From contig JARKOY010000021.1 in the NCBI GenBank assembly GCA_029975555.1, forward strand, positions 124,001 to 188,000: DNA of 64,000 nucleotides, read 5' to 3'. This DNA comes from Spirochaetia bacterium. Its GTDB lineage: Bacteria; Spirochaetota; Spirochaetia; Treponematales; Rectinemataceae. The first letter of the stretch is position 1. Every line of letters begins with the position of its first letter. Shown here in pieces: positions 35,475 to 42,579 of this stretch. The notes beneath the pieces are model-generated. The model was not told where the DNA came from, did not search any database, and saw only the letters and a program-made list of their open reading frames with translations. A program made the translations under genes and the position numbers.

Positions 35475-36602
35475 TCATTTCGGCGGCAGCAGATAGGCTC
35501 CTACGCCCTTCGTGAGTAGGCCCTCATAATCAGGAACACCCTCGACTTCCAGCGGCATTTCCGGGTGCTCTAGGTTCCAAGAATTCATAAGTTCTGATAT
35601 AGCCGTCACGTGCCTGCCGACACGCTCCTCGAGGGGGTGGCCGTGCTCATCGTAGGGCACATAGAGTCGGCCGAGCTTGGCCGCGCGGACGTACCATTTG
35701 TCCTTGCCCGTCAGCACGAGGGCTTCGTCCGTCCGACCGCGGAGCCGCCCCTGCGATGCGTTCGCGGTCTCCATGAGCACGGGCAGGGTGTCGGTGAAGT
35801 CGCCCAGTTCGCGGTGCGACAGTCCGCGGAGGTTGACCGGCGAAGGTTCGAGGCTGATCTTTATGTCCTGCATCTCGAGGCCGAGCACCGTGTCCGAGGC
35901 GAGCTGCATGGCTTTTGGGTGCGCGACGATTGCGTTGATGACCGGGTACTCGGGCGAGGCTTCGTGCAGGTCGACCGTGATGGTCACCTTCTGCTGTCTG
36001 ATGAGCTGCACTATGCCGTAGCACACTTTTTCGGTGAGAGTGCCGTCAGGACGGCCCGGGTAGCCGCGGTTGAGGTTGCGGGTCTCGCTTCCGGACAGTG
36101 TCTGCCCGGACGAAGCGTGAATGTAGACGTTGGGGTCGGGCCACTGGTGTATGGGGTTGGTCGCCCTCGATCCATAGCTGAATACGCGCGGACCGTTGGG
36201 GGTCTGGATCGTAAAGCGCTGGGGCGCACCTTCCTGCGGGTCGTTTGCGGTGAAGCCCGAGGCGTTTGCGCGGGGAATGACATAGAGAGTGCCCGTCCTC
36301 GGCACGACATTCTCTATGAACAATATTGCGGCAAGATGCCCTGCTGGCTCGTTGGGGTGTGTGCCGCCGAGAATTAGCATCGACGCTCCATCGTCGGAGC
36401 CTCTCATCACATAGACCTCTGTGTCGCCTGCCGTGCCTTTCAAGCCAGAGAACCACTCCGAGAGCATTTTCTTCTCGGTGACGCCGGGACCACGCACGAT
36501 CAGGTCGGGCTTCCTCATCGAAAGAAAAGAAGCCCCGGCAAGCGCCGAAGCCACGAGGGCTCCGGCAAAGCATACGATGGCCGTTATCCTATGTTTCTGC
36601 AT
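35475..36602 (-). CDS. M14/AstE-like zinc amidohydrolase (succinylglutamate desuccinylase/aspartoacylase type), exported
   Basis: 375-aa protein with an N-terminal membrane anchor or signal (residues 8-29, ITAIVCFAGALVASALAGASFL), placing it in the periplasm. Zinc-binding HxxE is in LGGTHPNEPAGH near residue 81, a DPNVY motif follows near 155, and DLHEASPEYPVIN near 213 supplies the third ligand region. Family members hydrolyse N-acyl amino acids or C-terminal residues. AGGAA precedes ATG 36602. Last gene of the GGT-DUF6305-permease operon, so it may trim gamma-glutamyl or N-acyl compounds (inference). Confidence 0.8.
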   Translation of the reverse strand: MQKHRITAIVCFAGALVASALAGASFLSMRKPDLIVRGPGVTEKKMLSEWFSGLKGTAGDTEVYVMRGSDDGASMLILGGTHPNEPAGHLAAILFIENVVPRTGTLYVIPRANASGFTANDPQEGAPQRFTIQTPNGPRVFSYGSRATNPIHQWPDPNVYIHASSGQTLSGSETRNLNRGYPGRPDGTLTEKVCYGIVQLIRQQKVTITVDLHEASPEYPVINAIVAHPKAMQLASDTVLGLEMQDIKISLEPSPVNLRGLSHRELGDFTDTLPVLMETANASQGRLRGRTDEALVLTGKDKWYVRAAKLGRLYVPYDEHGHPLEERVGRHVTAISELMNSWNLEHPEMPLEVEGVPDYEGLLTKGVGAYLLPPK

Positions 36603-36611
36603 GGATGTTCC

Positions 36612-36755
36612 TCATTTGATCATCAAAAGCCTGAGCAGAAGCGGCACGATCACCATGGCAGCCGTTATCTGCAGCGAAAGCTTCTTCGTGTCGAAGAGGA
36701 CCCAGACTGTCAGGGCGAGTACCACAGCCAATATCACAAGATACACATAGAACAT
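36612..36755 (-). CDS. 47-aa membrane protein between permease and M14 gene
   Basis: Small open frame with a strong TAGGAGG ribosome site 7 bases upstream of ATG 36755. The product has two hydrophobic stretches: residues 3-20 (YVYLVILAVVLALTVWVL) and 30-45 (ITAAMVIVPLLLRLLM), joined by FDTKKLSLQ, so it looks like a two-TM hairpin. It starts 9 bp after the permease stop and ends 9 bp before the M14 gene. It could be an auxiliary subunit of the permease; I do not recognise a family. Confidence 0.75.
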   Translation of the reverse strand: MFYVYLVILAVVLALTVWVLFDTKKLSLQITAAMVIVPLLLRLLMIK

Positions 36756-36764
36756 GGGATCCTC

Positions 36765-38036
36765 CTATAAGACAGCCCTGATCTGCTTGGAGAACACGAT
36801 GAATAGGATGGCGTACACGATGATTATCAGCGTCGGGATCACGAGTTTCTTCAGTACGGTGCCGTACTTCTCGAGCCCCACCACCTTGGCGGCAAAGATC
36901 GCTGCGAGGGCCGTGGGCGGCATGAAATCGCCGATGGCCGCGATCAGCGAGAGCGCCGCCGCCGCGATGATTTGGTCCCGGCCAAGGAGTGCCAGCATGA
37001 AAGGCACGCCGAGCACGCTCGCTGAGCCGAAGGCTGAAATCGCCCCGAACAGAGGGATCGAGATCGCGATCATCGCATAGAGGAGGGCGGGCGGCACCGA
37101 CAGGGCGTTGACCACGATGAAGCCGCGAACGCCCGTCGCCGTCATGATCTGGATGAACATGCCCACGCCCACGAGAATGCCCAGCACAGGGAGCACGTCC
37201 TCGATGGATTTCTTCGCCGACTGCACGATGTTGAAGCGTTTGCCCGTGACCCACGTCGACACCGTGCCGATGATAAAGATGAGCGGCATGCCGAGCCCAA
37301 ATACCCGTGGCACCACCTTGTCGAGGACCATCAGCACAAAAATGAGAATGATCGGCGAAAAAAGCCGCCATCCGCCGTACCGACTCAGGGTCGAAAAATC
37401 GAGCGAGGCGAGAACCTTCGTGCGGTCCATATGCCGCACCTTTCTCCAGCCGAACCACAGCGCAAAGACGACCGCGAGCGGGAAGGTGAGCAGCACAAGC
37501 GGCAGTTCGAAGCCGACATAGGGCATGTCGATGCCACCTCCGATGATCATCGCCGGGATATTCACCGGTGGAGCGATCATGCCCAGAATGGCCGCAATCG
37601 AGATGAGCGCCCCTGCGTCTACCGTCGATATTCCCATCGAGGCGAACATCGGCGCCACCACCGCGCCCGCCGTCAGCACCGACGCGGTCGAACTGCCAGT
37701 AATCATCCCCGGCACCATGATGACGAAGGTGAGAAGGACCATCAGAACTCCGGGCCATTTATGGAACTTCTTGATCACCGCCGCAGTCAAGGCCTCCAGA
37801 GCCCCCGAATCCCTAAACCCGGTCATGAACATCATCGCGGTGGCGATGGTCAATATTGTGTCGACGTACCCAAAGGTGCCTTCGACCAGGTGCCGCACCG
37901 GATCCTGCACTCCACCGGCGAGCGCGCCCGCCGTCGCTGCGAGCAGCATCGACACGGACACAGGCCACTTGAGCGCAAAACAGCCTGCGGCGAACACGCC
38001 GATCATCAAGACAAAAAGCCAAAATTCCTGCGACAC
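36765..38036 (-). CDS. TRAP-type (DctM-like) large permease
   Basis: 423-aa inner-membrane protein with about 11-12 TM segments, in the DctM/IT superfamily. DctM-like features are GMITGSSTASVLTAGAVVAPMF near residue 110, a following ILGMIAPPVNIPAMI near 150, and the second-half repeat FGAISAFGSASVLGVPFM with GDFMPPTALAAIFA near 370. No DctP receptor or DctQ subunit is encoded beside it; instead a DUF6305-like exported protein and a 47-aa protein flank it. Start is GTG 38036 with GCGAGG upstream, 11 bp after the previous stop. Confidence 0.82.
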   Translation of the reverse strand: MSQEFWLFVLMIGVFAAGCFALKWPVSVSMLLAATAGALAGGVQDPVRHLVEGTFGYVDTILTIATAMMFMTGFRDSGALEALTAAVIKKFHKWPGVLMVLLTFVIMVPGMITGSSTASVLTAGAVVAPMFASMGISTVDAGALISIAAILGMIAPPVNIPAMIIGGGIDMPYVGFELPLVLLTFPLAVVFALWFGWRKVRHMDRTKVLASLDFSTLSRYGGWRLFSPIILIFVLMVLDKVVPRVFGLGMPLIFIIGTVSTWVTGKRFNIVQSAKKSIEDVLPVLGILVGVGMFIQIMTATGVRGFIVVNALSVPPALLYAMIAISIPLFGAISAFGSASVLGVPFMLALLGRDQIIAAAALSLIAAIGDFMPPTALAAIFAAKVVGLEKYGTVLKKLVIPTLIIIVYAILFIVFSKQIRAVL

Positions 38037-38047
38037 GTCACGCCTCG

Positions 38048-38620
38048 CTATTTGGCAAAGGCTGCGGCCAGTGGCTCGCTGACCTGCGAAATTTTCTGAA
38101 CAATGTCGAGCGGAATCTTGGTCCCGCAGAGCTTCGTGAAGAGGCCATCAGCGTTGCCCTCCTCGACGACGATGAAGTAGTCGCACAGGGGCACCGCCGC
38201 GCCAATGAAGCGGTCGGACAGCTCCCCCCGCCTCGCCTCGCCGCCGATGTGCAGGCCGATGATCTTCATGCCACGCTTTTTGGCCTCGGCGAGGAGCGCC
38301 TTCGCTCGCTCCAGCTCCGCATCCGCGGAAATGCCCGCGGCGCCGAGTCCCTTCGACGAACCACCGATGACGACGACGAGAGTCTTGGCGTTCGTGCTCG
38401 CGAGCGCCTGCGCCTTCACCAGCGAATCCATGCTGAAGCTCAGTTTCGCTCGGCTCATGATCGCCTTCGCCATCTCGACGTCGGCGCTCTGCCCGATCGA
38501 CGTGAGGAGGGCCGGTTGCGCCGCAATCGGCGCCTTCAAGGTAAACGCCACCAGCGAGAGCGGCATGTACACCGCCATCAGCGCTGCGACGACAATCCTG
38601 AGAATATCGGAGCGTTTCAT
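38048..38620 (-). CDS. DUF6305-like exported protein
   Basis: 190-aa protein with an N-terminal signal/anchor (residues 8-27). The mature part is an alpha/beta fold with LTSIGQSADVEMAK near residue 40, VVVIGGSSKGLGAAGISADAE near 83-103, IGLHIGGEARRGELSDRFIG near 122-141 and DYFIVVEEGNADGLF near 149. I match these to DUF6305; no biochemical role is established as far as I know. AAGGGGA precedes ATG 38620. Sits immediately before the permease, in the position a TRAP or TTT system would use for its substrate-binding protein, so it may be the receptor (inference). Confidence 0.75.
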   Translation of the reverse strand: MKRSDILRIVVAALMAVYMPLSLVAFTLKAPIAAQPALLTSIGQSADVEMAKAIMSRAKLSFSMDSLVKAQALASTNAKTLVVVIGGSSKGLGAAGISADAELERAKALLAEAKKRGMKIIGLHIGGEARRGELSDRFIGAAVPLCDYFIVVEEGNADGLFTKLCGTKIPLDIVQKISQVSEPLAAAFAK

Positions 38621-38672
38621 AGAATCCCCTTTCCTGTGTGTAAAAATTCGACGACAAAGCTCAGCTTGCACA

Positions 38673-38695
38673 CAGCCGGCCCCGTTGGCCGGCTG
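38673..38695 (-). terminator. Intercistronic hairpin between GGT and DUF6305 genes
   Basis: Perfect 9-bp stem CAGCCGGCC (38673-38681) / GGCCGGCTG (38687-38695) with a 5-base loop and no U-tract. Likely a 3' stabiliser or partial terminator that sets the level of the genes after GGT. Confidence 0.6.
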
Positions 38696-38770
38696 CAATG
38701 CTACCGAGAAACCGGGGGCGCGCGCGATCAATTCGACAGAAAATCCGTGCGCCCCGCTCGGAGCGTCATC

Positions 38771-40456
38771 TCAGAATGCCTTCGCCTGTCCGTCGCGGCG
38801 TGGATCTGCGCCGCCGTAGAGCAAGCCTGCATCATAATCGTAGACGATCGCGTGCACCCCGCCGAAATAGGCATCCCAATCGGCATGGATCGAAACGCCG
38901 TGGCCGAGCTTCTTGATGCCGTCGAGCGCACTGACCGGATAGCGTCCCTCGAGGTGTAAGTCTCCGGATGCCGCTTGGTAGACGCGTGGGGCAAGTATCG
39001 CTTCCTGAATGGGGAAGCCAAAATCCACGACATTCGAGATGACCTGGGCCACTGTGGGGAATATGCGCGTGGCGCCAGGAGAGCCGATGGTCATGAACGA
39101 ACGCCCCTTCGAATCGAGAACAAGAGTCGGACTCATGCTGGAGAGCGGCCTTTTGCCGGGCTCAACGGAGTTGACCGAACCGGGGGTCGCCACAAAGTCG
39201 TCCATCTCGTCGTTCATGATGAAGCCCCAGCCAGGGATCACGACGCCAGAACCGAAGAAGTAGTTGATCGTTTTGGTGACCGCGACCATGTTGCCATCTT
39301 TGTCCATCACGGAGAAGTGGGTGGTTGAGCCGGATTCATACTTGAAAGGATCGCCAGCTTTGGGAGGAGTCATCGAGGCGTTCATGTCGATCCTGGCGGC
39401 CTGTTCCTTCGCATACGCCTTGCTGGTGAGCCCCGCGAGCGGCACCTTGACGAAATCGGTGTCGCCCATGTACTTCGAGCGGTCGGCGAAGGTCAGCTTG
39501 AGGATTTCGGACCAAAGGTGCGCAGCCTGCGGAGTCTGGAAACCGAGCTTCTTCACATCGAAGTTCTCGAGAATGTTGAGGATTTCGATGAGGTGCGTGC
39601 CGCCGGACGAGGCAGGCGGCACCGAGTAGACCTTGTAGCCACGATAGTCGCCTTCGACGGGCTTGCGGATCTTCACCTGATAGTTCGCGAGGTCCTCGAG
39701 GGTGAGGATGCCGCCGCGCTTCTGAACTTCATCCACGATGGCCTGTGCGATTTCGCCTTTGTAGATGGCATCTTCGCCTTCCTTGACGATCTTTGCGAGC
39801 GTCTTGGCGAGATCGGGGTTGTAGATCACCTCGCCCACCTCATAGGGGAGCCCATCCTTGAGGTATATCTGAGCGCCGTTTTCATACTTGACGAGCTTGC
39901 CGAAGTTGTCCTTGATGATCGACGCGAGGTTGACGGTGACCGGAATGCCTTGCAGCGCCCACTGAATTGCCGGCTGGATGATGTCGGCGCGGCTCAGCTT
40001 GCCCGAACCGTAGTGTTCCAGCGCATAGAGAAGCCCTTTCACCTCGCCGGGAACGCCGACCGCCAGTCCGCCTTCGACGGTCGAATTAGGAATAACCTTG
40101 CCGTCCGCGCCGAGATACATCGTTGGCGTGGCTTTACCCGGCGCCATCTCACGGAAATCGATGACGACGGGCTCCGCCATGTCCTTCATCTTGATGATCA
40201 TAAAGCCACCGCCGCCTACGCCCGATGCGTTCGGCTCAAGCACACCGAGCGCAAAACCGGTGGCAACCGCAGCATCGACGGCGTTGCCACCCTTCTTCAA
40301 AATGTCGATGCCCACCTGGGATGCCTCCGGCTTTGCCGCGGCGACGACGCCGTTGGCTCCCACGGCGGCACGACCATATAGATTGACCGGCAGCTGCGCC
40401 GATACGGCGCCGAGCGCCGCCACGAACAGCGCCAACGCGAGCATGAGCTTTTTCAT
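38771..40456 (-). CDS. ggt: Gamma-glutamyltransferase (GGT), exported
   Basis: 561-aa Ntn-hydrolase precursor with a signal peptide ending near residue 20 (...GAVSAQ), so periplasmic. It hydrolyses or transfers gamma-glutamyl groups, for example from glutathione, after autocatalytic cleavage before the conserved threonine, here T378 in ESGSTTHFSVMDKDGN. GGNAVDAAVATGFALGVLEP near residue 55 and the substrate loop PLSSMSPTLVLD near 455 are typical. First gene of a minus-strand operon with an exported DUF6305-like protein, permease, 47-aa protein and M14 amidohydrolase. Confidence 0.93.
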   Translation of the reverse strand: MKKLMLALALFVAALGAVSAQLPVNLYGRAAVGANGVVAAAKPEASQVGIDILKKGGNAVDAAVATGFALGVLEPNASGVGGGGFMIIKMKDMAEPVVIDFREMAPGKATPTMYLGADGKVIPNSTVEGGLAVGVPGEVKGLLYALEHYGSGKLSRADIIQPAIQWALQGIPVTVNLASIIKDNFGKLVKYENGAQIYLKDGLPYEVGEVIYNPDLAKTLAKIVKEGEDAIYKGEIAQAIVDEVQKRGGILTLEDLANYQVKIRKPVEGDYRGYKVYSVPPASSGGTHLIEILNILENFDVKKLGFQTPQAAHLWSEILKLTFADRSKYMGDTDFVKVPLAGLTSKAYAKEQAARIDMNASMTPPKAGDPFKYESGSTTHFSVMDKDGNMVAVTKTINYFFGSGVVIPGWGFIMNDEMDDFVATPGSVNSVEPGKRPLSSMSPTLVLDSKGRSFMTIGSPGATRIFPTVAQVISNVVDFGFPIQEAILAPRVYQAASGDLHLEGRYPVSALDGIKKLGHGVSIHADWDAYFGGVHAIVYDYDAGLLYGGADPRRDGQAKAF

Positions 40457-40502: not shown

Positions 40503-40531
40503 ATTTTCTTACAGTTCCAGAGCGGTGTCAA
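40503..40531 (-). promoter_or_regulatory. ggt promoter
   Basis: On the minus strand TTGACA (40531-40526), 17-bp spacer, GAAAAT (40508-40503). The -35 overlaps the last codons of the upstream gene; TGGAGG lies before the ggt ATG. Confidence 0.55.
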
Positions 40532-41202
40532 TCTTGTTCATTACTGATTTTGTCCGGCTTTTTTGTCTGCCCGAGACGAACCTCGACGGCCGCTGGCTTT
40601 CCGAGGCGCGCCGATTCACAGAAGGTCTCGGCAAAGTGCCGCACTCCCTCTTCGATGGCCGCCCGGACTGCCGGTTCAGCGAGCGTCGCCTGCGCGTGCG
40701 TCAAGAGGTCGTTCGAAAGCTCGCGCTGCATGCGGGCGGCCTCTTCTTTGAGTCGGAACAGCATATTGGTGAGAAGATTGGAATTCTCGGTGATGATCTC
40801 GATCGTATCCGTGTGCACCGCGGGCAAAAGACAGTCGGGTGCAGGCGTCGAAAGCGCAAGCCTGCGCGTCTTGGCGTCCCACTGAATCGTCCAGGCCGAG
40901 GGGTCCGAAGCGGGAATGACATAGGTGATGTCGGCCACGGCGCTCAGGCGGATCTTGGCTTTGATATTGAATATCGCGAGCAGCTTGGCGGTGAATTCTT
41001 TCGACGCTTCGTAGCGCTCCTGCGTGGTCGCCGCAACCACCAAGGGCCACGGCTCGAGCTTTTGCAGGTAGAGCGTAAACTGAGATCGCACATCGGGTCG
41101 GGAATGGGCAAGCACCTGAACGACCACGACAGTGGCCACCGCGAGCACGATGGTCAGGATGAACAGCAGCACCACGGGAGCAGAAAGGCGTACACGGTCC
41201 AT
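40528..41202 (-). CDS. Hypothetical membrane-anchored protein, DUF4230-like
   Basis: 224 aa with one N-terminal TM segment (residues 8-31, APVVLLFILTIVLAVATVVVVQVL) and an extracytoplasmic domain. The mature part (KEFTAKLLAIFNIKAKIRLSAVADITYVIPASD..., then a long charged helix near 140-180) resembles DUF4230-type proteins, but the match is by general look only. The C-terminus is Lys-rich and polar. It begins 3 bp after the C69 peptidase stop, so the two are one operon. Confidence 0.6.
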   Translation of the reverse strand: MDRVRLSAPVVLLFILTIVLAVATVVVVQVLAHSRPDVRSQFTLYLQKLEPWPLVVAATTQERYEASKEFTAKLLAIFNIKAKIRLSAVADITYVIPASDPSAWTIQWDAKTRRLALSTPAPDCLLPAVHTDTIEIITENSNLLTNMLFRLKEEAARMQRELSNDLLTHAQATLAEPAVRAAIEEGVRHFAETFCESARLGKPAAVEVRLGQTKKPDKISNEQD

Positions 41203-41205
41203 CGT

Positions 41206-42498
41206 TCAATCTCCCCAGCGATCCTCCCATTCGCCGACAATGGCAGCGACTTCGTTGGCATACACAGAAAAAAGGCGCTGGGGAGAAGACTTTTCCTTCA
41301 ACGTTGACTCGAATGCCTTGTGTGCGACCTTGATGATCGATCTCTGCGCCTCATCTCTCGACTGCACAAAGACTTGCTGATTTGCAAGCATCAAACGGTG
41401 TTGGTCTTCGGCCCATGCCTTGCGAGCGCGCCAGTAGGCATACATCTGATCTGCTTTCGTTTCGTCGGGGATCGGTTTCCACAGAGAATAGAACCGGCCG
41501 TCCTTTAAGATCGCCGGCTTATACAGCGAGACGCAAGGGTACGAGCTGTCCGTATACCATACGATCGCACCGCCGGACAGATACTCTACGGACATGGAGG
41601 CTGTTGTCGCGCTCTTCGGGAAGATCCCCGGATGTACGCAGAGGTTCTTCATGCGGCTCAGAAACAGCCCGGGCTTCGGAGCTCCTTCGTGGGATCGTAA
41701 AAGCGAAAGCAGTGCCTCGATTGTTCCCGAAGCATTGCCTTCGTTTGAGCCGCCTGCGGCCATGCGCATGAGCCCCGCCAGCGACGTGGACCTGCGTCGT
41801 TCGCCCTTGGTAAAGAAAAGATAGCGCGCATCTTCAACATGTCTTTTCCAAGAATTACGCTGACCCTTGCGCCCCGGGTCGGCTTCGTCGGAACAGGCGG
41901 CCCGTTCGTTGACGGGAGCGATCTCTTTTCGAGTTTGCGCATCGAGACGCTTGTAATCGTCTTCAATGCAGTAGGCGTTCGAAATCGCATCTGCAATCAT
42001 GGCCTTGCGCCAAGCCCAGCGCTTGCCTGCAGTCTCGATTACATATGCTTCTTCGGGGTCCACCGCAAGAAAACTGTTGTTGTAGACGAGCCTGCCTTTG
42101 TAGGCACCGTTTCCTCCCTGTGGATGTGTCTCGACAAACGAAGTAATGAAATCCACGGCCTCTTGTGCCGTCGCACAGGCGGAGAGTGCCGACCTGAGGA
42201 TATCCATGCCGAGTACGCCGTGCTCGTCGGGCGTAAACCGCGAAAAGACCGCCTCGTTTCCGATCGCGAGACTCTTACTGTTGATGCCCATTTCGCCGCC
42301 ATGCATCCAGGAGGGCTTGGAAAGCAGCATCGCGTAGCCCTTGTCGGAGAATTCGACGCCTTCTCGTATGAGTTCGGTCTTCGGTTCGCGCGGCGGAATA
42401 TGCACAAGGACCTGGGGTTCTTCCGGTTCTCTGTCCGAATTTTTGCCAAAAAGGATTGATTTACCTGCATTGTCATGCAACACGAGAGTATCACACAT
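41206..42498 (-). CDS. C69-family Ntn peptidase (secernin-like dipeptidase)
   Basis: 430-aa cytoplasmic Ntn-hydrolase. Start is fixed by biology: removal of Met1 exposes the catalytic Cys2 in MCDTLVLHDNAGKSILFGKN, followed by the family's NSDREPEEPQ. The frame runs upstream to 42561, but any longer start would bury the nucleophile. WMHGGEMGINSKSLAIGNEA near residue 66 and GNGAYKGRLVYNNSF near 130 are further C69 landmarks. C69 enzymes are dipeptidases or amide hydrolases; the eukaryotic relatives are secernins. AGGAGG is 11 bases before the ATG, a long spacing. Confidence 0.85.
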   Translation of the reverse strand: MCDTLVLHDNAGKSILFGKNSDREPEEPQVLVHIPPREPKTELIREGVEFSDKGYAMLLSKPSWMHGGEMGINSKSLAIGNEAVFSRFTPDEHGVLGMDILRSALSACATAQEAVDFITSFVETHPQGGNGAYKGRLVYNNSFLAVDPEEAYVIETAGKRWAWRKAMIADAISNAYCIEDDYKRLDAQTRKEIAPVNERAACSDEADPGRKGQRNSWKRHVEDARYLFFTKGERRRSTSLAGLMRMAAGGSNEGNASGTIEALLSLLRSHEGAPKPGLFLSRMKNLCVHPGIFPKSATTASMSVEYLSGGAIVWYTDSSYPCVSLYKPAILKDGRFYSLWKPIPDETKADQMYAYWRARKAWAEDQHRLMLANQQVFVQSRDEAQRSIIKVAHKAFESTLKEKSSPQRLFSVYANEVAAIVGEWEDRWGD

Positions 42499-42551
42499 GG
42501 GCTTGCACACCTCCTCGGGCTTCTTGTCCCGCTGCAAGTCGACACGTCTAT

Positions 42552-42579
42552 GGTATATCACTTTTCAATATTCACGCAA
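42552..42579 (-). promoter_or_regulatory. Promoter of the C69 peptidase operon
   Basis: On the minus strand TTGCGT (42579-42574), 16-bp spacer, TATACC (42557-42552). Its -35 lies inside the divergent promoter of the TPR gene, so the two transcripts probably influence each other. Confidence 0.5.

Follow-up and report, generated by a model that had tools for sequence, protein, structure and literature searches.

A conserved gamma-glutamyltransferase–DUF6305–permease operon of a Rectinemataceae spirochaete: a probable accessory module of poly-gamma-glutamate systems

The poly-gamma-glutamate (PGA) systems of Bacillus (pgsBCAE/capBCADE) carry a gamma-glutamyltransferase (GGT)-family enzyme and a very small protein alongside a PgsB/PgsC-type synthase, and systems of the pgsB-pgsC-TIGR04332 type are described from Fusobacteria and Clostridia. 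Fusobacterium nucleatum is reported as the first Gram-negative PGA maker (Candela 2009, as cited in PMC3815933 and PMC4497714), and a gene of the Francisella cap locus bears the annotation 'poly-gamma-glutamate system protein' (PMC5362203). Here we describe an operon encoding a GGT, a DUF6305 protein, a DctM-like permease, a membrane protein of 47 amino acids (aa) and an M14/AstE-like zinc hydrolase, found in a 64,000-nucleotide stretch (hereafter the window) of a Spirochaetia bacterium (Rectinemataceae; GCA_029975555.1, contig JARKOY010000021.1, positions 124,001 to 188,000 of the forward strand). This five-gene module adjoins, or co-occurs with, pgsB-pgsC-TIGR04332 genes, and the operon descriptions consulted for those systems include none of its five genes; within the library searched, DUF6305 and TIGR04332 are named in no paper. 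Compared with the Bacillus systems, the module has an additional permease, hydrolase and DUF6305 protein, its GGT is nearer to true GGTs than to CapD, and no PgsA/CapA is recognised.

The five genes occupy the minus strand and are transcribed from position 40456 to position 35475. The GGT gene (38771..40456, 561 aa; PF01019, 2.4e-165; TIGR00066, 549 bits, cut-off 358) is separated by 150 bp from the gene for the DUF6305 protein (38048..38620, 190 aa; PF19823, 8e-51), after which gaps of only about 10 bp separate the DctM-like permease (36765..38036, 423 aa; PF06808, 44 bits, cut-off 23.8), the 47-aa membrane protein (36612..36755; no family name, recognised by codon bias, Shine-Dalgarno sequence and conservation), and the M14/AstE-like zinc hydrolase (35475..36602, 375 aa; PF24827, 24.7 bits, cut-off 25). 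An earlier reading of the DNA letters (the original prediction) had named all five genes, and each was found at 35475-40456 on the minus strand, with the families of all but the 47-aa protein backed by Pfam and NCBIfam. Its description of an exported GGT and a zinc hydrolase flanking a DctM-like permease without DctP or DctQ is likewise borne out. No DctP or DctQ family member was found among the five operon proteins or the annotated neighbours.

Scanning 84,980 named species genomes gave 253 DUF6305 relatives, from which the best 80 loci were kept, ranked by similarity to the window's own layout (GGT-DUF6305-permease-47aa-M14, layout A); the genomes are related to one another, and several are draft bins. 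These 80 loci contain a GGT gene in 77 cases, an M14 hydrolase gene in 74, a permease gene in 71, and the 47-aa gene in 68, all of which are lower bounds because contig ends truncate many of the loci. The contiguous run DUF6305-permease-47aa-M14 is present in 63/80 loci, and all five genes stand in one run in 52/80; this recurrence is far beyond chance and marks a real conserved operon. Linkage of DUF6305 genes to such permeases elsewhere had been set beforehand as the test by which the original prediction could be refuted, and with a permease in 71 of the 80 loci the prediction came through it. The loci belong to Spirochaetota (including Treponema vincentii), Fusobacteriota (Fusobacterium, Cetobacterium) and Bacillota (Clostridium tetanomorphum, Fusibacter, Oscillibacter, Lachnospiraceae and others), with a few from bins labelled Holophagaceae, Comamonadaceae, Bacteroidetes and Atribacteria, labels that may be wrong. 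Gene order is kept from Spirochaetota to Fusobacteria and Clostridia, and Rectinema subterraneum is among the closest named loci (L063).

Among the relatives' loci, an M14-like gene adjoins DUF6305 in 35/35. About a dozen relatives' loci have a second arrangement (layout B), which combines DUF6305 and GGT with two M14 genes and has no permease; in 4/4 layout-B genomes checked, GGT-permease-47aa-M14 or permease-47aa-M14-PgsB-PgsC-TIGR04332 is encoded at another site in the genome. Weak PF19823 matches in three genomes of a single genus (g49: G113, G135 and G158; 21-25 bits, inside open reading frames (ORFs) of 441-683 aa) were treated as chance or remote similarities; the 47-aa protein is found in none of the three genomes, and no module gene was detected around the match in G113. 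One Fusobacteriaceae genome has a DUF6305 gene that looks split over two frames with internal stops (G290:C1:467282-467742), which could be a pseudogene or a sequencing error.

Clustering of all neighbour ORFs of the DUF6305 loci exposed PGA synthase genes. The Clostridium tetanomorphum locus encodes PgsB (TIGR04012, 6e-111), PgsC (TIGR04011, 6e-42; PF14102) and a TIGR04332 protein (1.7e-113), followed by a histidine kinase. Among the 80 loci, PgsB is encoded in 45, PgsC in 44, TIGR04332 in 41, and at least one of the three in 47. The spirochaete's own genome carries pgsB (TIGR04012, over the cut-off), pgsC and TIGR04332 together on another contig (C151; locus L148). The association extends to whole genomes: of 59 relatives, DUF6305 occurs in 20, each of which also encodes TIGR04332, one genome (79% complete) has TIGR04332 alone, and 38 have neither. 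The 47-aa protein is encoded in 20/20 of the DUF6305 relatives and in one incomplete genome. For 61 Fusobacteriaceae the raw counts are 16 with both, 44 with neither, and one with DUF6305 alone, although the contig of this last genome ends at pgsB beside the module, so that the count becomes 17/17. The named DUF6305 genomes have a TIGR04332 match in 21/24, above the cut-off in 20. The tie between the operon and PGA synthase genes is therefore strong, and it was missed by the original prediction, which saw no connection to PGA. In the reverse direction, 10 of 198 genomes across the phylum encode TIGR04332, and nine of these lack both DUF6305 and the 47-aa protein. From this pattern it follows that the module depends on the synthase, but not vice versa. 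In six inspected loci from other Spirochaetota (L152-L157), pgsB-pgsC-TIGR04332 stands without any gene of the five-gene module being detected in its vicinity.

The GGT has a signal peptide by inspection and is thus predicted to be exported, and its catalytic Thr lies within the motif STTHFSV. When aligned with E. coli GGT, it shows a 10-residue gap opposite the lid loop, whereas there is no gap relative to a Bacillus-type GGT. In alignment, the catalytic Thr is kept in 96/96 distinct operon GGT sequences, and the lid loop is missing from all 96, in which 11-16 residues stand in place of the 23 of E. coli. The open cleft of lid-loop-negative Bacillus GGTs is thought to admit PGA, and these enzymes are described as PGA degraders; insertion of the E. 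coli lid loop into a Bacillus GGT changed its preference from PGA to glutamine (PMC8062742). By its sequence, the operon GGT is of this lid-loop-negative, putatively PGA-capable type. It resembles the GGT of Bacillus subtilis, a PGA exo-hydrolase, in lacking the lid loop and keeping the catalytic Thr; in B. subtilis, ggt has no linkage to pgs (PMC4497714), whereas here GGT shares an operon with a permease and a hydrolase. In sequence, the large subunit is closer to ordinary GGT than to CapD (316 bits against E. coli GGT, 163 bits against CapD).

The M14-like hydrolase is predicted to be membrane-anchored or exported. All 23 of the aligned members match PF24827 (AstE/AspA) at E < 0.01, relatives reaching 46 bits and the window's copy falling 0.3 bits short of the cut-off. 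H82, E85, H213 and E278 are invariant, and an RNxNR motif is shared (RNLNR in the window). By analogy with AstE/AspA, with which the hydrolase shares the metal-site and RNLNR patterns at a weak overall sequence match, H82, E85 and H213 are putative metal ligands and E278 a putative catalytic base. Of the proteins with solved structures, AstE/AspA and DoeB-type enzymes are the closest to it in sequence. The phage enzyme PghP, a zinc enzyme that cuts PGA (PMC4497714), is a functional parallel; membership of the phage PGA hydrolase family was considered and dropped, since nothing beyond AstE/AspA and M99 was matched in Pfam, giving no sign of PghP membership. Many Clostridia encode a second AstE/AspA hydrolase of about 240 aa between M14 and pgsB (L086:5867-6598, L099:11379-12110 and similar loci), the copy in L099 matching PF24827 at 72 bits.

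Because the operon occurs almost only in bacteria with PGA synthesis genes, its most likely task is to trim PGA and recover the glutamate, and we consider it somewhat probable that it constitutes an accessory module to a PGA system of known type. The presence of two extracytoplasmic enzymes predicted to cleave gamma-glutamyl links, together with a dicarboxylate-type carrier, points to trimming and recapture. PgsB, PgsC and TIGR04332, encoded elsewhere in the genome, would make and secrete PGA. On the outer side of the cytoplasmic membrane, gamma-glutamyl units would be taken (or transferred) from the amino end of the polymer by the open-cleft GGT, and the AstE-type zinc hydrolase may cleave gamma-glutamyl links at the other end or within the chain. 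The permease, presumably in complex with its 47-aa partner, would return glutamate or short gamma-glutamyl chains to the cell, and DUF6305 may be an extracytoplasmic Rossmann-like helper for a PGA-related ligand, perhaps passing a signal to a linked histidine kinase. This would suggest that these bacteria break down and reclaim PGA of their own making, and it ties DUF6305, the 47-aa protein and the permease to PGA in anaerobes, both Gram-negative and clostridial (among them Treponema vincentii, Fusobacterium and gut Oscillospiraceae), whose PGA biology has received little study.

Several observations weigh against this reading. No PGA synthase gene lies in the window itself, these genes being on the other contig, and some loci (layout C) have DUF6305-permease-47aa-M14 without GGT. 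Fisher tests of co-occurrence (7.5e-15 for the 59 relatives; 8e-14 for the Fusobacteriaceae, raw counts) overstate significance because the genomes share ancestry. Three of the 24 named DUF6305 genomes, all draft metagenome bins, have no TIGR04332 match and no PgsB over the cut-off. The nine genomes with TIGR04332 and without the module imply that synthesis itself can do without it. Finally, since the permeases of this fold include efflux pumps (MtrF/AbgT type), the fold does not fix the direction of transport.

The explanation given in the original prediction is periplasmic scavenging of gamma-glutamyl peptides from the environment (such as glutathione) or of N-acyl amino acids; DUF6305 would be the receptor and the 47-aa protein a substitute for DctQ, with no functional tie to PGA. 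The enzyme classes fit this explanation, as do a permease without DctP or DctQ and the separation of the window's operon from pgsBC. It is nonetheless improbable: module and PGA synthase genes share genomes almost without exception in two distant clades, the GGT has no lid loop, and DUF6305 is predicted not to be bilobal and can sit apart from the permease. Wherever a genome is good enough to judge, the module is accompanied by PGA synthase genes, which makes a polymer produced by the cell itself a better candidate substrate than environmental glutathione. Of the degradation and uptake of gamma-glutamyl compounds proposed in the original prediction, the gamma-glutamyl chemistry thus stands, whereas glutathione and N-acyl substrates give way to PGA, which the link to the synthase genes makes likelier.

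The main competing explanation accepts the tie to PGA but gives the module a part in making, exporting or anchoring the polymer instead of in its turnover. The GGT would then be a CapD-like transpeptidase that joins PGA to an acceptor, the 47-aa protein would stimulate the synthase in the manner of PgsE/CapE, the permease would supply glutamate or a counter-ion or move chains outward, and the M14 hydrolase would set chain length. The operon is joined to pgsBC in both orders, and one locus (L161) is a single run of permease-47aa-M14-PgsB-PgsC-TIGR04332. There are precedents in Bacillus: CapD is the GGT-family protein of the cap operon (PMC4497714), CapE is, to judge from the title of Candela 2005 (cited in PMC4497714), a 47-aa peptide needed for the capsule, and PgsE stimulates PGA production (PMC3815933). 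No conserved CapA/PgsA-like neighbour was recognised in the neighbour-ORF clusters of the DUF6305 loci. We consider a role in synthesis fairly unlikely, as PgsB-PgsC-TIGR04332 occurs without the module in the nine Spirochaetota, the GGT is far nearer to ordinary GGTs than to CapD in bit score, and two hydrolases with a carrier of dicarboxylate fold look catabolic.

The permease model (pLDDT 86.5) has the elevator fold of the ion-transporter superfamily, and PF06808 is matched by 18/20 permease members. The fold is that of TRAP (DctPQM) M subunits, and the window's permease exceeds the PF06808 cut-off; in contrast to TRAP systems, there is no DctP and no DctQ of about four transmembrane (TM) segments, neither as a separate protein nor fused to the 423-aa permease, and a constant 47-aa partner is found instead. 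The VIA-align Z scores (ArsB 28, DASS carriers 16-27, TRAP M subunits 21-23) put the predicted fold as near to one-component DASS carriers and ArsB as to TRAP M subunits. As all three groups match, structure does not decide between a derived TRAP M subunit and a one-component carrier, and assignment to one subfamily by structure was dropped; the sequence favours DctM.

The 47-aa ORF has AGGAGG a few bases upstream of its ATG. Comparison of the copies of eight close relatives places 558 of 892 pairwise base differences at the third codon position, and the amino acid is kept in 458 of 680 differing codon pairs; the coding pattern is that of a genuine gene. The protein shares 34-60% identity with its counterparts in Clostridium, Fusobacterium and Treponema, and Y5, P38, L41 and R42 are invariant. 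It has two hydrophobic segments, the second containing an invariant Pro and Arg, and a C-terminal motif P-L/F-x-L-R-x-L-x-I-K. No DctQ match and no NCBIfam model were found for it, and its Pfam matches are at chance level. The gene sits between those for the permease and the hydrolase nearly everywhere, and its position beside the permease in 68/80 loci makes it a constant neighbour of the permease. The simplest reading is that the two proteins would form a stable complex; a DctQ-like role is possible, with no sequence similarity found. A bolder version of PGA recovery, which we hold as tentative and rather doubtful, is a recycling transporter of new build, in which the permease, an obligate two-helix subunit of 47 aa and a soluble DUF6305 protein would bring PGA fragments back into the producer. 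If this were true, PGA would serve these anaerobes as an external glutamate store. The operon as a whole places DUF6305, an unnamed conserved 47-aa membrane protein and a permease without its usual partners in a functional setting.

The DUF6305 protein has a hydrophobic N-terminal export segment, and PF19823 is the one family that it matches. In an alignment of the family (A1), the motifs GQ and GxSxKGxGxxG are invariant and RRG is mostly kept; for scanning DNA by pattern, the diversity of A1 was excessive, and a closer set (A2) served instead. The AlphaFold2 model (pLDDT 92.5, pTM 0.84) predicts one Rossmann-like alpha/beta lobe, for which Foldseek and VIA-align return only general Rossmann/ribokinase-like matches (best Z 9.3); with such general matches, no function follows from the fold. 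The proposal that DUF6305 takes the place of a DctP-like receptor finds no support in this model, which is single-lobed rather than bilobal, or in the layout-B loci, where no permease stands beside DUF6305; a periplasmic binding protein was rejected on the single lobe. A relation to TIGR04332 was sought with hhalign, the resulting probability (15%) being too low to use. DUF6305 may be a ligand-binding helper or a sensor. That DUF6305 is chiefly a sensor, binding external PGA breakdown products generated by the enzymes and reporting them to a neighbouring histidine kinase, would fit the presence, close to the module in about 30 loci, of genes for a histidine kinase and a response regulator; in L078, L079, L114, L047 and L053 a DUF6305 gene has a kinase or regulator gene close by. 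We regard this as very improbable: DUF6305 stays with GGT or the permease in most loci, and beside the operon of the window itself no kinase was noted. Among the DUF6305 genes with a kinase or regulator gene close by are L078:2319-2933 and L079:1985-2548. Some proteins contain three tandem DUF6305 domains (L125:4212-5993, L129:5466-7259, L135:6741-8459 and L138:326-2233); they occur in Lachnospiraceae and a related Clostridia bin, and the linkers in L125 are rich in Ser, Gly and Ala.

Promoter and terminator scans gave a signal no higher than background. Upstream of GGT, on the minus strand, the window encodes a 224-aa protein with one TM segment (40528..41202), whose family forms a neighbour-ORF cluster of 10 loci (cluster 34), and a 451-aa C45/AAT-like protein (41206..42561; PF03417, 22 bits, below the cut-off of 23.2). 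These two genes (40528-42561) precede GGT only in the window and its closest relatives, and the 224-aa protein is outside the general module.

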